From a virus: a DNA stretch of 25,623 nucleotides. The DNA lies in the IMG/VR virus record IMGVR_UViG_3300021142_000164, positions 1 through 25,623 of that record; one strand, given 5' to 3'. The notes beneath the pieces are model-generated. The model had not been told where the DNA came from, searched no databases, and was given only the letters and a program-made list of their open reading frames with translations. The position numbers were made by a program, and so were the translations under genes. Shown here one piece after another: positions 3,061-15,505 of the stretch (position 1 is the first letter of the stretch; the number at the start of each line of letters is the position of its first letter).

Positions 3061-4020
3061 TTAGGCGGCTTCTGCCATTTCAATGGCAGTTTCAAGGGCA
3101 TGGGTTTTCAGGTTCCGATTAGAACCATACCATGCCGATTGCAGACGGTTTTCCTGACTCCGACCGGCAAGATGATCGGTGTAATACGTAGTGGCATTAA
3201 ATAGCTGCCAAAAGGTACCACGAGCATATTCTGCACCAGGCTGAGTATCGACAATTTCAAGAACTGTCTTAGCGGGCTTGGACAATTCCTTCTTGGAATC
3301 CGTCTTAGATGTAGCAACCGGGAACACACGCTTGAAGTATTCAACCATGTTCTCGTTTGTGTAACGCTTTTGACCCAAGAATTGAGCCATTTCCTTATAC
3401 TTGGCAAGCTTGTCGGCGGCAACACCGAGCATTAGCTTGACAGAGTCGCCGTTGAATTCACGACGATGCGAAAACTTGACCATCCGCTCAACCTTGGTAT
3501 TCAAGGAAAGTGTCAGGGTATTGTTACACACCACACGGATCGGGGTAAACCGAACGTCGGTAGAAAAGCCATATTTGTGGAAATTCGAGAAGTGAAGATA
3601 CGATTCCACTTCATCACCCTTGAAAAGGGAAAAGCCGTCCTTGACCTTTGCAAGCGCCCAGACAATTTGGCCATCCTTCAGCGACCCTGCCGTGTGCATT
3701 TCCATGTCACCTTCGGCAATAAAGTCGTTGAAGAATTCAAATGCTTCCGAATTTTGAACGGGATTCCAGTCATCAGAAACAATGTCAAGAATTGTATTAT
3801 CAGAGGTGCGTACCAGAGCAGACCGACCGACGGAAACGTCCTTACCGCCGACGTTAGCAAAGGCCGGGATCTTCTCGACCTTCCAATTTAGGTCTGCTGC
3901 CTCGAGCATCTGCTCGGGGGTCAGGTCATCGGGGACGCAAGTGCCCAGACCATGCCAAGGTGTAGGTCCAGCATAAGCCATAGAGGCCTTGCCATTCTTA
4001 ATTTCAAGTTCGTGTGCCAT
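3061..4020 (-). CDS. DUF932 family phage/plasmid-like protein
   Basis: A 319-residue protein with the hallmark N-terminus of the DUF932 / TIGR03299 phage- and plasmid-associated family: MAYAGPTPWHGLG (residues 14-26), then D.T..QMLEAA.L.W.V, a central RFTPIRVVCNNTL element (about 157-169) and a conserved C-terminal YARGTFWQLFNATTYYTDH segment. The length is typical. The biochemical function is unknown; members are common in large phages and plasmids, often with replication or recombination genes. The start ATG has GAAGGG about 5 nt upstream. A promoter with perfect 17-bp spacing is at 4056-4084. It is followed by the 77-residue protein in the same unit. Base composition is somewhat more GC-rich than in the structural genes. 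Confidence 0.9.
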   Translation of the reverse strand: MAHELEIKNGKASMAYAGPTPWHGLGTCVPDDLTPEQMLEAADLNWKVEKIPAFANVGGKDVSVGRSALVRTSDNTILDIVSDDWNPVQNSEAFEFFNDFIAEGDMEMHTAGSLKDGQIVWALAKVKDGFSLFKGDEVESYLHFSNFHKYGFSTDVRFTPIRVVCNNTLTLSLNTKVERMVKFSHRREFNGDSVKLMLGVAADKLAKYKEMAQFLGQKRYTNENMVEYFKRVFPVATSKTDSKKELSKPAKTVLEIVDTQPGAEYARGTFWQLFNATTYYTDHLAGRSQENRLQSAWYGSNRNLKTHALETAIEMAEAA

Positions 4021-6500: not shown

Positions 6501-6694
6501 AGAATAAGATTGGTAAAATCAGGTATCAGGTCTGGGATCAGGTCTATATTCAGGTCGGCGATCAGGTCTGGAGTCGGGCGGGGTATGGCGGGAGTCGGGT
6601 CAGATATCAGGTCAGTGATCAGGTCTGGAATCAGGTCAGTGATCAGGTCTGGGATCAAATATTTGATCAGGTCGAGGATGATCTAAAATGGTGA
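6494..6694 (+). CDS. x-Q-V-x tetrapeptide-repeat small protein ending DDLKW
   Basis: A 66-residue protein with N-terminus MVKNKIGKIRYQVWDQV, a body of 12-bp-encoded units [D/Y/N/S]-Q-V-[W/S/Y], a short glycine/arginine interruption (WSRAGYGGSRVR) and the end VEDDLKW. The start overlaps the last codons of the upstream ORF (ATGGTGA). The next micro-ORF (6688) starts in the same way inside its last codons. The shared ends and in-frame repeats support translation. No domain is recognised. From memory, similar tetrapeptide tracts (SQLW/DQVW type) occur inside DUF6745 proteins; the neighbour at 6770 is DUF6745-like. Confidence 0.65.
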   Translation: MVKNKIGKIRYQVWDQVYIQVGDQVWSRAGYGGSRVRYQVSDQVWNQVSDQVWDQIFDQVEDDLKW

Positions 6695-7790: not shown

Positions 7791-7987
7791 AGAGTGATAT
7801 TAACAAAGCCAAATGGCAAGTCCGGGATAAGCACTGGATTTATACGAATGAACTGATCATAAATCAGGTTTGGGATCAGGTCAGAAATCAGGTTTGGGAT
7901 CAGGTCAGAAATCAGGCCTATAATCAGGTCTGGTATCAGATCTTGGATCGGGGCTGGGATCAAATTGGAGATGATCTAAGATGGTGA
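7760..7987 (+). CDS. x-Q-V-x tetrapeptide-repeat small protein ending DDLRW
   Basis: A 75-residue protein. A non-repetitive head (MGNDGSVGIVKSDINKAKWQ) is followed by seven or so units of the type [N/D]-Q-[V/A]-[W/R/Y] and the end WDQIGDDLRW. The start lies inside the preceding frame (7569-7790), and its end overlaps the start of the next member by ATGGTGA. The body is encoded by recognisable 12-bp DNA repeats, aatcaggtttgg and variants. The head differs from the MVK..ID start of its relatives. No known domain. Confidence 0.65.
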   Translation: MGNDGSVGIVKSDINKAKWQVRDKHWIYTNELIINQVWDQVRNQVWDQVRNQAYNQVWYQILDRGWDQIGDDLRW

Positions 7988-8196
7988 AGAATAGTATTGA
8001 TAGCGTCAGGTATCAGGTCTGGGGTCCGGTCAGGTATCAGGTCTTGCATCAGGTCAGGGATCGGGTCTGGGGTCCGGTCAGGTATCAGGTCAGGGATCGC
8101 GTCTTGAATCAGGTCTTGCATCAGGTCAGGTATCAGGTCAGGGATCGCGTCTTGAATCAGGTTGAGGTTCAGATTAAAGATAATCTAAGATGGTGA
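7981..8196 (+). CDS. x-Q-V-x tetrapeptide-repeat small protein ending DNLRW
   Basis: A 71-residue member. It starts MVKNSIDSVRYQVW, continues with the most regular repeats of the cluster (units such as R-Y-Q-V, L-H-Q-V, R-D-R-V, L-N-Q-V), and ends VQIKDNLRW. Higher-order duplication is visible: the block VRYQVRDRVLNQVLHQ recurs in part as VRYQVRDRVLNQVE, showing recent in-frame expansion. Both ends are linked to neighbours by the ATGGTGA overlap. The pattern predicts either a regular helix/coil or a solenoid-like stack of aromatic and Val positions every four residues; which one cannot be told from sequence alone. Confidence 0.65.
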   Translation: MVKNSIDSVRYQVWGPVRYQVLHQVRDRVWGPVRYQVRDRVLNQVLHQVRYQVRDRVLNQVEVQIKDNLRW

Positions 8197-8435: not shown

Positions 8436-8466
8436 TTGACAATACCATTTAAATGGTGTATAAATA
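8436..8466 (+). promoter_or_regulatory. Strong promoter for tmRNA/gp32, sigma70 plus late-type box
   Basis: TTGACA (8436-8441), 17-bp spacer, TATAAA (8459-8464). The -10 region extends to TATAAATA (8459-8466), the exact T4 late promoter octamer, so the site could serve host sigma70 early and the phage late sigma later. The expected start near 8471 fits the beginning of the tmRNA acceptor piece. Confidence 0.85.
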
Positions 8467-8478
8467 TAAATGTTGCTG

Positions 8479-8492
8479 TTGATTGCAATCAA
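8479..8492. repeat. Perfect 14-bp palindrome TTGATTGCAATCAA
   Basis: Lies 13-14 bp after the -10 box, at the start of the tmRNA acceptor transcript. It could be an operator or a small hairpin at the acceptor 5' end. Confidence 0.5.
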
Positions 8493-8673
8493 ATAGACTT
8501 GCTGAGACGGGAGTGCGACTCTCCCCACCTCCACCATAAGCACACGGTATGTCAGAACACTGGATGCAAGTCGTGTGTTTATGATGGGGGTGACTAGGTT
8601 CGATCAGCTGTGGTAAGGGTTGAGGTAGGCAATGAGTAAGACACGACTCACAATCAGTTCAAAAACTATAAAT

Positions 8674-8718
8674 GCCAACGATAATGTTGCATTTGAGGGA
8701 ACTGCCCTAGCGGCATAA
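8674..8718 (+). other. tmRNA tag reading frame ANDNVAFEGTALAA
   Basis: From GCC at 8674 the frame encodes ANDNVAFEGTALAA and stops at TAA 8716-8718. The ANDN start and terminal A-L-A-A are typical of proteobacterial degradation tags read by ClpXP. The middle, VAFEGT, differs from the FAEEFAV of common alphaproteobacterial tags. Confidence 0.9.
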
Positions 8719-8762
8719 CCTCATTGGGTATGGGTTCCACCTAGAAACAGAACGGGCCCAAT

Positions 8763-8787
8763 ATACTAACATACTAAAATATACTAA
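8763..8787 (+). promoter_or_regulatory. Three ATACTAA repeats in the gp32 leader
   Basis: ATACTAA occurs at 8763, 8771 and 8781 in an unstructured A/U-rich leader just before GAGG and the gp32 ATG. In T4, gp32 represses its own translation by cooperative binding to an unstructured A/U-rich leader beside a pseudoknot. This repeat is a candidate equivalent; that is inference. Confidence 0.45.
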
Positions 8788-8804
8788 TATATACGAGGTT
8801 ACAT

Positions 8805-9716
8805 ATGAATTCTTTTTCTGCACTAAAATCTTCTTCTAAGAGTTCCTTGGAGAAGTTGACACAAGAACTTTCAAAGCTAAATTCTGGTACTGAATCATCT
8901 AAGGATACTCGCTTCTGGTATCCCAATGTTGATAAGGCAGGTAATGGATTTGCTATGATCCGATTCCTACCTCCTTCTGCTAATGAAGATGTTCCATTCA
9001 TTCGTATGTTTGAACATGCTTTCAAAGGCCCAACTGGACTTTGGTATTTTGAAAATTCTCTAACTACTATCGGCAAGAATGATCCTGTCGGTGAATTGAA
9101 TTCCGTTCTTTGGAATCAATCATCTGATGAAAATTCACCTGGTCGTAAGCAGGCACGAGAACAAAAGCGTAAGCTAAGTTATATCTCAAACATTTATGTT
9201 ATCCAAGACTCTGCCAATCCAGAGAATAACGGAAAGGTTTTTCTCTTTAAGTATGGCAAGAAAATCTTTGATAAGCTAAATGAGGTCATGAATCCTCAGT
9301 TTGAAGATGAAAAGCCAATGAATCCTTTTGACTTCTGGGCTGGTGCTACATTCAAGCTCAAGATTCGGAATGTTGAAGGGTATCGCAATTATGATAAGTC
9401 AGAATTTGCAACACCTGGCCCTCTATTTGATGATGACGATGCTATGGAGAAGGTTTGGAATCAGCAACATTCTCTGCAAGCATTCCTTGACCCTAGCAAC
9501 TTCAAGAGTTATGAAGAACTCAAGAAGAAGCTTGATAAGGTTTTGGGACTTGATGATGCATCTAAGCTTACAAAGGCTCGGACAAAGACACCTGAGCCTG
9601 AGGATGATGAACTACCATGGACACCACCTAAGGTTGAACGTGCGGCAGTTCAGTCTTCTACGTCAGATGATGAAGATGATGACTTAGAATTCTTCAAACG
9701 TCTTTCAAAGGACTAA
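8805..9716 (+). CDS. gp32: gp32-like single-stranded DNA-binding protein
   Basis: A 303-residue homologue of T4 gp32, which coats ssDNA in replication, recombination and repair. A basic/Ser-rich N-terminus (cooperativity region) is followed by RFWYPNVDKAGNGFAMIRFL (about 37-56), FIRMFEHAFKGPTGLWYFEN (about 66-85) and the core F.FGKKIFDKL / PFDFWAGATFKLKI elements, ending in an acidic tail (DDEDDDLEFF) used in T4 for partner contacts. The T4 zinc ligands are largely missing: a His is kept, but the three Cys are absent, as in other zinc-less marine homologues. GAGG precedes the ATG. It shares the transcript start region with the tmRNA and is closed by the terminator at 9722-9747. Confidence 0.95.
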   Translation: MNSFSALKSSSKSSLEKLTQELSKLNSGTESSKDTRFWYPNVDKAGNGFAMIRFLPPSANEDVPFIRMFEHAFKGPTGLWYFENSLTTIGKNDPVGELNSVLWNQSSDENSPGRKQAREQKRKLSYISNIYVIQDSANPENNGKVFLFKYGKKIFDKLNEVMNPQFEDEKPMNPFDFWAGATFKLKIRNVEGYRNYDKSEFATPGPLFDDDDAMEKVWNQQHSLQAFLDPSNFKSYEELKKKLDKVLGLDDASKLTKARTKTPEPEDDELPWTPPKVERAAVQSSTSDDEDDDLEFFKRLSKD

Positions 9717-11746: not shown

Positions 11747-13987
11747 TTATGCTGCCAATGCTTGCCCTAGTCGTTGTTTTATTGATATATCTGTTGTGTT
11801 TGTTGCTTGTGCTGAAGAAGGAGTAGTGCCAGAACCTTGTTGAACTGGAACAGGAACATTTGCGGCTATATTTTTAGGTGCTGTAGTTGCTGCTTGATCT
11901 GCTGTAGAAGCTTGTGCTAATTGTTGACCGGAACGCTTAGCATAATCTTGCATCCAATGTGCTTGATATTGTTGTGGAGTAAGACCACGATTTGCTGCTA
12001 ATGCCGCTTCAGATATTTTCCCTTGAGCATTACCAGTATACCAAACAAGAGGTACTTTTGACACATCATTGTTATTTGCTTTTAAAATATCAGAAATAAA
12101 ATTACCAGCAATTTGATCTTGAATGCCTGGTGGAGCATCTGCTGCACTTTTATATTCTGTTCCGACACCAAATTTCTTTGTTAAACTCTGCCATGTAGAA
12201 TCAATAAACTGATATGCACCAGAAGCCGATGAACCTTTAGCATGTATCTTATAATTGCCACCGGATTCTCGACCTTTGATAGTATCAAGAATTGCTTGAA
12301 CACCAGATGAAGCAGTAAAGCCAATAAAATCACCTACGGCCGAGGCAGCAGATGATACAGCAGTTCCGACGGCTGATGCCGCAGATGATAGACCAGAACC
12401 AACGGCTTCAGCACCCGAAACAAGTGACTTACCAAGTCTAGAAAAGAAACTGTCGGAACTACCATCGGAACTATCAATTACAATCTTTTTTGCATCAAGA
12501 TTCAAAGCTTCCACTTTTGAATCACCTTCATTTTTATTGACAATTTCATTCACGGCTTTGGGTAAGGTGATAGGTATACCTTCAGGCGTAAATAATAATT
12601 CTGGAACATCTTTATCTTTACCTACTGCTGTGGTAGAAGTTTTTGCAGCAATTTGATCTATAATTGAATCAACAAGATCATCAACACTTTTACCTAAAAA
12701 TTCCGAAGCAACATATCCACCTGCAAAGCCACCAATAAGACCGACCGCAGCACCTACTAAATTCCCAAATCCAGGAACAACAGAACCTGCCATAGCGCCA
12801 ATGTATGTTCCTATAACACCACCAACCCAAGCCAAACCAAATTGATCCACTAAATGTGCTATAACTTTTGTAACATTTACCTTATAATTTGGATCATTTG
12901 AATCTAATTCCATTATTTCAACAAAACCATCATATATTGTCTTTGCAATTAGAGCAGGCATTAACACCTTACCTGCAACAGTCTCAACAGCGCCAGCAAG
13001 TGCACTGTCAACTGCACCGACGGCTTTACCAGCTATTTTTAAACTTTTTCTTCCAATTTCAGCGCCTTCACTTGCAACAGAAGAAATACCAGATTTGGCT
13101 GATTCCGCAACATTACCTAGTGTTCTTGTTGTTCGTTGCCAAAAACTTTCAGGTGGTGCTTCTACAGGTCTGGGTGCTTCTACTTTTGTTGAAGGAGCAG
13201 GAGTCTCTACAGGTGCTGGTTCTGGTGCTGGTGTTGTTTCTGCTCTTGAACGTGCAATCTTTTCAAGACGAGCATCTCTTGCAGAACCTTTTAATTCATT
13301 ACCATTTTTATCAAATAAATTTATTTTACCTTCGCGTTCAAGTTTCTCAATTCGAGCATCTCTTGCAGAACCTTTTAATTCATTACCATTTTTATCTAGA
13401 AGATCCTCGGGTGAAATTACTCGTTCTTCTTTTAAATCTATCTTTTTGGATGGCTTGTTCGGATTCTTTTCAACAGGTTTTTTAAGATTTTCTTCAGGTG
13501 TTTCTTGCTCAGCTGTTTTCTGAGCATTTCTTCTTGCTTCTTCTTCTGCAACTCTTTTCCCTTCCTCAGCTTTTCTTCTGGCTTCTTCTTCCTCAGTTGC
13601 TTTTGCTTTTGATTGTTTAACTCTTCTTAAAGCATCAATCAGTCCAGCATTTGAAGAAGCAGAACCAGAATCATATTCCGAAATAATATGATTGAGAATT
13701 TCATTCTGTTTGACTATATTTGAATGTGCAAGTTCCAACAAGGAATTGCTATTCTCAATCAATGAAGCTACACGTTCAACAGAACCCGTAAATGTTCTTT
13801 CAATATTATATTCTTCTCGTTCCTCACCTTGCTCCTCAGTATCAAGGGTATCCAAATTTTTAGAAATTAAAGCATTAAGATTTGGAAACAATGCACTAAA
13901 AGTAGCACCGCCAATTTGCTTCAAAGCAGATTTTGCAAATCCAGGAGTATTATTTTGTTTTGGGAGAGAAGTCTCCTCATTAGCCAC
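11747..13987 (-). CDS. Tape-measure-like protein with lytic transglycosylase domain
   Basis: About 746 residues from GTG 13987 (AAGGA nine bases upstream); a TTG at 14014 would add nine. In order: a helical region (residues ~50-120), an Ala/Glu/Arg-rich coiled coil (EEEARRKAEEGKRVAEEEAR), two copies of DKNGNELKGSARDAR, a Pro-rich linker, Gly-rich hydrophobic segments (LAWVGGVIGTYIGAMAG and GAAVGLIGGFAGGYVA) and a C-terminal SLT-type domain: KGRESGGNYKIHAKG (catalytic Glu likely in RES), SGAYQFIDSTWQSL, and LVWYTGN. The domain would cut peptidoglycan during DNA delivery. Position after gp26 and the chaperone frame plus membrane and SLT segments fit a tape-measure protein; gp5 here lacks its lysozyme domain. 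Confidence 0.75.
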   Translation of the reverse strand: MANEETSLPKQNNTPGFAKSALKQIGGATFSALFPNLNALISKNLDTLDTEEQGEEREEYNIERTFTGSVERVASLIENSNSLLELAHSNIVKQNEILNHIISEYDSGSASSNAGLIDALRRVKQSKAKATEEEEARRKAEEGKRVAEEEARRNAQKTAEQETPEENLKKPVEKNPNKPSKKIDLKEERVISPEDLLDKNGNELKGSARDARIEKLEREGKINLFDKNGNELKGSARDARLEKIARSRAETTPAPEPAPVETPAPSTKVEAPRPVEAPPESFWQRTTRTLGNVAESAKSGISSVASEGAEIGRKSLKIAGKAVGAVDSALAGAVETVAGKVLMPALIAKTIYDGFVEIMELDSNDPNYKVNVTKVIAHLVDQFGLAWVGGVIGTYIGAMAGSVVPGFGNLVGAAVGLIGGFAGGYVASEFLGKSVDDLVDSIIDQIAAKTSTTAVGKDKDVPELLFTPEGIPITLPKAVNEIVNKNEGDSKVEALNLDAKKIVIDSSDGSSDSFFSRLGKSLVSGAEAVGSGLSSAASAVGTAVSSAASAVGDFIGFTASSGVQAILDTIKGRESGGNYKIHAKGSSASGAYQFIDSTWQSLTKKFGVGTEYKSAADAPPGIQDQIAGNFISDILKANNNDVSKVPLVWYTGNAQGKISEAALAANRGLTPQQYQAHWMQDYAKRSGQQLAQASTADQAATTAPKNIAANVPVPVQQGSGTTPSSAQATNTTDISIKQRLGQALAA
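13269..13396. repeat. 44-bp exact direct repeat within the tape-measure-like gene
   Basis: 13269-13312 and 13353-13396 are identical over 44 bp, 84 bp (28 codons) apart. They encode the duplicated D-K-N-G-N-E-L-K-G-S-A-R-D-A-R segment. The perfect DNA identity indicates a recent in-frame duplication. Confidence 0.85.
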
Positions 13988-14192
13988 CAGATAAATTCCT
14001 TCTTTGTTCTTCAAGATCTTTTAAATATTTCAGAAGCATATCAACAAAGAAATCACGTTCAAATGGCATCATATCCTCAATTTCACTCAATGAATACTTA
14101 TGGTGTTGTATGAGTGAAAAATTAGTAAGGTAAAAGTTTTCAAGTGTATTATGGCTTAACCCAACGTAAAAAAATCTGATAACGTAGTCAGC
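13980..14192 (-). CDS. Chaperone-like frame without start codon, read by -1 frameshift from gp26
   Basis: A 70-codon open frame (stop TAA at 13982-13980) overlaps the 3' end of gp26 in the -1 frame and has no ATG or GTG before its conserved-looking core HHKYSLSEIEDMMPFERDFF. At the overlap, gp26 reads GAT TTT TTT ACG, providing the heptamer T-TTT-TTT (14174-14168). A -1 slip there continues as Y-V-G-L-S-H-N-T-L-E-N-F, fusing about 62 residues to gp26. Tail-assembly chaperones upstream of tape-measure genes in lambda, P2 and others use such frameshifts. The gene position corresponds to gp51/gp28 in T4. The alternative is initiation at TTG in YSL. Confidence 0.6.
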   Translation of the reverse strand, partial: ADYVIRFFYVGLSHNTLENFYLTNFSLIQHHKYSLSEIEDMMPFERDFFVDMLLKYLKDLEEQRRNLSGG

Positions 14193-14878: not shown

Positions 14879-15505
14879 TTATTGTATAAGTTGCCATCTC
14901 TTAAATGAAAATTCTACTGATACTCTGTAAAGTTTATCAGTATCACTCCAATCAACCGTTGTATCATCTATAGCTGTTGGAAATGCCTCAATAACTTTTA
15001 TATTCTTGGAAATATTTCCAAGATTATCACAAACTGTAATGGATATATCTTGCACAATATCATTTCTATATGCCACAGAATATTGTGGTTGACTTTCAAC
15101 ACCAGTAAAAATACCGGTATAATCAAACGCAGAGGTAGTCCAAAGATAAAAAAGTTTGAAAATATCACTTGCTTTATTTTCTAGAAAAGTAATATGCATT
15201 TTGCTAAATCTAGCATTTGTTGTAAATTGTTTATTGATACCTACACCATACGTGCGATTGTCAATAGTGTCCAATGTAATACCAGGAATTCTAACTTGCT
15301 CTGCTCTAAATTGAAGTAGTCTATCCAATGGGTATTGAAATTTAAATCTAGTTTGTTTCTGAAATAATGCAGGGAGCATGAAATTGCAAAAATATCTATT
15401 AGTCTGAATTGTGCCAGTTTGATTTAAATGCTCCGTAAAATTGGATATATTAAACCCTTGATCTGCGCTAATGGTTTGATCCGTGCTTATGGGTGTAAGT
15501 GCCAT
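14879..15505 (-). CDS. gp19-family tail tube-like protein
   Basis: A 208-residue protein with a tube-type ending: AFPTAIDDTTVDWSDTDKLY then VSVEFSFKRWQLI. This mirrors the end of T4 gp19 (WPTNVGELQLDWDS.N.I..FEVTLALDYW). The central part FRAEQVRIPGITLDT corresponds to the loop-strand after the first sheet of gp19. It is longer than gp19 (163 residues) because of an N-terminal extension. Its place between the 202-residue protein and gp26, within a baseplate operon, suggests either the major tube protein or a baseplate-proximal tube paralogue. TAGGAT precedes the ATG, and the start overlaps the stop region of the upstream gene. Confidence 0.65.
   Translation of the reverse strand: MALTPISTDQTISADQGFNISNFTEHLNQTGTIQTNRYFCNFMLPALFQKQTRFKFQYPLDRLLQFRAEQVRIPGITLDTIDNRTYGVGINKQFTTNARFSKMHITFLENKASDIFKLFYLWTTSAFDYTGIFTGVESQPQYSVAYRNDIVQDISITVCDNLGNISKNIKVIEAFPTAIDDTTVDWSDTDKLYRVSVEFSFKRWQLIQ

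Follow-up and report, generated by a model that had tools for sequence, protein, structure and literature searches.

The DNA analysed here, referred to as the window, comprises 25,623 nucleotides (positions 1 to 25,623) of the IMG/VR virus record IMGVR_UViG_3300021142_000164, and coordinates refer to it unless another sequence is named. On its minus strand, a gene for a gp26 homologue lies just downstream of a tail tube gene and is followed by a small open reading frame and a gene for a large tail protein (Table 1). The gp26 homologue ends with the codons TCA GAT TTT TTT ACG TTG GGT TAA, the stop codon occupying positions 14158..14156 (-). The original prediction, made from the letters of the window, was a programmed -1 frameshift that leads from gp26 into the small frame, and the features on which it was built were recovered. 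The heptamer T TTT TTT resides in the right phase for a tandem -1 slip, and the small frame overlaps the end of gp26 in the -1 frame, where it is open from position 14192, just past a TGA, to a TAA at 13982..13980 (-). Conceptual translation of the slip product gives the junction ...S-D-F-F-Y-V-G-L-S..., with D-F-F-Y-V-G-L-S exactly as forecast, and from the slip site onwards the -1 frame reads FFYVGLSHNTLENFYLTNFSLIQHHKYSLSEIEDMMPFERDFFVDMLLKYLKDLEEQRRNLSGG. The open -1 codons located upstream of the slip site are probably not translated in that frame. In agreement with the prediction, neither ATG nor GTG precedes the conserved core of the small frame: ATG, GTG and TTG are all absent for 28 codons past the slip site, the first being a TTG 28 codons downstream, while the first pair of ATG codons (codons 34-35 after the slip) already falls within the core. 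The probable start of the next gene is a GTG at 13987 (-). The pair had been placed immediately before tape-measure-like genes; a large tail gene does adjoin it, but its identity as a tape measure is conjectural, its match being to the tail-associated lysin family phrog_1047.

Table 1 Features of the gp26/gp51 locus and its neighbours on the minus strand of the window.
Feature	Position	Strand	Evidence
gp26 homologue, predicted short form of tail-assembly chaperone (TAC-N), 235 aa	14156..14863	-	PF12322 T4_baseplate 9e-52; phrog_150 1e-54; AlphaFold2 mean pLDDT 89.5
Putative slippery heptamer T TTT TTT, 0 frame (GAT TTT TTT ACG), three codons ahead of gp26 stop	14168..14174	-	Sequence; kept in 31/31 IMG/VR relatives
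gp51 tail (predicted TAC-C), -1 frame, 64 codons from slip site plus stop	13980..14174	-	phrog_634 5e-23; tblastn to cyanophage gp51 down to 2e-18; pN/pS 0.25 (codons 6-33)
Six extra open -1 codons upstream of slip site, without start codon, TGA before them	14175..14192	-	Sequence
Next gene, large tail protein, tape-measure or tail-lysin candidate, overlapping small-frame end	11747..13987	-	phrog_1047 tail associated lysin 5e-10; transglycosylase 1.5e-7
Tail tube protein (gp19-like), just upstream of gp26 homologue	14879..15505	-	phrog_45 tail tube 6e-24

Elsewhere in the window, ARAGORN identified a permuted (two-piece) tmRNA of the alphaproteobacterial type at 8444-8809 (+) with the tag ANDNVAFEGTALAA, which also scored 107 bits with the Rfam model tmRNA_permuted and 79 bits with alpha_tmRNA. 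The type of this phage-encoded tmRNA is a hint that the host may be an alphaproteobacterium. A degenerate 12-nt repeat (ATCAGGTCTGGG-like) forms arrays at positions 9-143, 6525-6673 and 7863-8162, inside several short open reading frames encoding repeated V/W-x-x-Q-V peptides.

The sequence TTTTTTT is scarcer in the window than expected by chance (9 occurrences versus 24.4 expected from shuffles), and among the 20 open reading frames examined, the one in gp26 is the sole in-phase X XXY YYZ heptamer situated at most 25 codons from a stop. All 31 relatives from IMG/VR (42-100% identity; one of them, L032, ends at its contig edge) carry the in-phase T TTT TTT within GAT TTT TTT followed by AC at the 3' end of gp26, and in those measured the gp26 stop follows three codons past the heptamer, and the -1 frame continues without a stop into the gp51 tail. 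Given how these genes use their Phe and Asp codons, the probability that 21 distinct lineages would all have GAT TTT TTT is about 2e-13, a value which assumes independence of sites and lineages that does not fully hold. Cultured phages were sampled as well (20 in total, including Kyanoviridae, phiM12, Ochrobactrum and Rhizobium phages, Aeromonas Aeh1, Vibrio KVP40 and others), and in 19 of them the corresponding position is occupied by T TTT TTT, T TTT TTC or T TTT TTG. Six T followed by C is the form present in most of the cultured cyanophages, and T TTT TTG was found in one Rhizobium phage. Conservation of the heptamer in relatives, proposed as a check of the original prediction, is thus borne out. 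The exception among the cultured phages is Vibrio phage K444, which has no T run where its gp26 relative ends (about position 3211 of its own sequence) and in which the next small frame has an overlapping TAATG start. The K444 lineage may have replaced the frameshift by a start of its own.

In principle, gp51 could be a separate short gene that is translated by coupling at the downstream TTG or ATG or from a rare start codon, with the T run being incidental. Many cyanophage records do list gp51 as a separate CDS, potential starts exist in the window at codons 28 and 34-35, and the distant phage K444 has the overlapping start in place of a T run. However, the annotated gp51 starts in the records of cultured phages are scattered and differ between relatives, and the records of Syn30, S-WAM1 and Aeh1 do not list gp51 at this position. 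One relative (L014) contains no ATG, GTG or TTG across its entire 63-codon small frame, and in three others (L005, L011 and L031) the first such codon appears only at codons 45-46. About half of the IMG/VR relatives have a -1-frame stop codon immediately ahead of the slip site. At the sequence level, the small frame is under purifying selection: for codons 6-33 after the slip, the region ahead of most possible starts, pN/pS amounts to 0.25 in the -1 frame, compared with 0.89 and 1.80 in the remaining two, values that are rough because pS is near saturation. The conserved and selected sequence begins at the slip site itself, and together with the presence of the heptamer in every IMG/VR relative found this makes a separate gene improbable.

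Slippage of the RNA polymerase on the run of seven T, rather than of the ribosome, is even less probable as the source of the -1 product. The window and all its close relatives do have a seven-T homopolymer, but transcriptional slippage usually needs longer runs, and the T TTT TTC and T TTT TTG variants shorten the homopolymer while still permitting tandem tRNA slippage. Moreover, the heptamer is invariably in the exact X XXY YYZ phase. An error of sequencing or assembly within one long gene, to which homopolymer runs are prone, has a negligible chance of being the explanation and is ruled out by the conservation of the arrangement, as the same layout recurs across 31 contigs from metagenomes and in cultured phages with finished genomes, with a 0-frame stop within a few codons every time.

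The small frame matches phrog_634, annotated as 'baseplate hub assembly catalyst', and shares 50-62% identity with gp51 regions of cyanophages, which identifies it as gp51. In T4, gp26 and gp51 are encoded by two separate, divergently oriented genes. T4 gp51 itself contains a PF12322 domain over residues 1-201 (4e-52), followed by a C-terminal extension that matches phrog_634, and it is with this C-terminus that the small frame of the window aligns. By these matches, a gp26-like domain and a gp51 tail are naturally fused in T4 gp51, and T4 would therefore make the short and the long form from two genes. A profile of T4-type gp51, built from T4 and six relatives, scored 36.1 bits on the conceptual fusion from the window compared with 14.6 bits on gp26 alone and 17.2 bits on the tail alone. 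Taken together, the domain structure of T4 gp51 and the higher score of the fusion make T4 gp51 a natural counterpart of the putative frameshift product. A change of frame of a different kind was seen in a 167-kb T4-like contig (L061), where gp51 changes frame at about position 2860 of the contig, midway through the PF12322 domain and distinct from the gp26 slip site. We regard it as a sequencing error or a broken gene.

For the gp26 of the window, the AlphaFold2 model was compared with solved structures. With VIA-align 2, the top matches were 3fgx (Z 8.4), the HK97 tail assembly chaperone 2ob9 (Z 7.8) and YqbN, 3klu (Z 6.8), the next match dropping to 3.8; 3fgx and 3klu also belong to proteins of the chaperone type. 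These matches are confined to residues 1-94, and their Z values are middling by the program's own note, so that they are supportive only. With this qualification, the predicted fold is best matched by solved tail-assembly chaperones. The HK97 protein aligns with gp26 residues 1-85 (83 residues, 3.6 A), but with only 6% identity and with about 145 further gp26 residues uncovered. Foldseek alone returned zero significant matches for the gp26 model, a sequence search of solved structures with gp26 and T4 gp51 found nothing, and a model of T4-type gp51 gave no clear structural match, the HK97 chaperone reaching only Z 3.7.

The heptamer, the open frame, their conservation, the selection on the start-less part and the homology of both halves to a single T4 protein are present in the sequences themselves. 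Comparative evidence from the heptamer, the stops preceding the slip site, selection, the T4 gp51 fusion and the chaperone fold thus gives strong support to the original prediction of a -1 frameshift that takes gp26 into a chaperone tail lacking a start codon. We consider it very likely (probability about 0.92) that the locus encodes a tail-assembly chaperone in two forms, the long one arising by -1 slippage on U UUU UUU; very probably, the T run makes some ribosomes slip back by one base and add the gp51 tail. Most ribosomes would terminate at the gp26 TAA and release the 235-aa short form, while a minority would slip on U UUU UUU and go on in the -1 frame, yielding a gp26-gp51 fusion of 294 residues, of which 230 come from gp26 and 64 from the small frame. 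If the two forms act like lambda G and GT, the tape measure would be coated by the short form, and tail tube subunits would be recruited through the C-terminal extension of the long form. The occurrence and the rate of slippage, as well as the chaperone role in the phage from which the window originates, are what we infer.

Elements that might stimulate slippage were found on both sides of the heptamer. In many relatives, a 9-bp stem begins 7 nt past the heptamer, in which GCUGARYCA pairs with UGRYUCAGC around a 38-nt loop that often contains an inner hairpin. For the downstream 60 nt, the mean folding z is -3.7; that of the window is 0.1. The stem was located from single-sequence folds, and its pairs were then counted directly in 20 sequences. 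At least 8 of the 9 pairs are kept in 13 of these, and the window keeps 5 of 9. In the outer stem, 87% of the pairs are standard, four pairs are changed on both sides, and the covariation score was reached by none of 500 shuffles. This covariation is only suggestive because related sequences can beat shuffles without any structure, and a coding constraint might also underlie it, since both arms also encode conserved residues. RNAalifold returned no consensus structure for all 20 sequences, probably because several of them, the window included, lack the stem. Upstream, most cyanophages have an SD-like GAGGG, GAGGA or GAAGG about 9 nt ahead of the heptamer, and such a motif is absent at this position in the window. 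The stimulator of dnaX frameshifting is SD-like, and the upstream motif of the cyanophages resembles it. Tentatively, and with somewhat less than even odds, the gp26/gp51 lineages might stimulate the same slip in different ways, namely by a covarying downstream stem in the relatives of the window and by an upstream SD-like GAGG in most cyanophages. The window, having neither, would then depend either on U UUU UUU by itself or on some element that has escaped recognition. The apparent contrast between lineages is a lead, and lineage-specific stimulators are possibly a new detail.

The tail-assembly chaperone genes of T4-like phages have reportedly been identified by Vladimirov, Gautam and Davidson (Virology 2022, 566:9-15), who are reported to name genes 26 and 51 and to describe frameshifting as kept in several T4-like groups. 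The PRFect paper (PMC10885494) cites this work for T4-like phages with one short gene and one fused long gene, and the paper on phage Adele (PMC12846349) refers to it for the polyT slip sites of T4-like TAC-N genes. The statement in the original prediction that such a frameshift was not established for the T4 gp26 position is therefore out of date, and the arrangement in the window is already known in kind. As far as these sources reveal, the gene pair with its short and long form is the same; the window differs in belonging to an uncultured relative with T TTT TTT, while T4 itself uses two genes and no frameshift. The resemblance to lambda gpG/gpGT lies in a predicted short and frameshift-extended chaperone, encoded between the gene for the tail tube and one for a large tail protein. 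In the window the tail tube gene is clear on the upstream side, and the downstream gene, a tape-measure candidate, matches a tail-associated lysin. Lambda differs in its heptamer, and the phage of the window is contractile-tailed. According to the Adele paper (PMC12846349), the TAC locus of Adele and other Vandenendeviridae likewise has a T-rich site close to where TAC-N ends, at which a -1 frameshift is conserved, and a downstream frame mis-annotated as a separate gene, but the motif there is GTTTTT and the phage family is another.

For the annotation of T4-like phages, these findings mean that records with a separate short gp51 gene probably have wrong starts, and others omit gp51; the correct gp51 product is most likely the frameshift fusion. 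They also lend independent support to the view that gp26 and gp51 of T4, for a long time described as baseplate hub proteins, represent a tail-assembly chaperone in its short and its long form. With a putative frameshift here and two genes in T4, the family would offer a natural series in which to examine what sets the proportion of short to long form.
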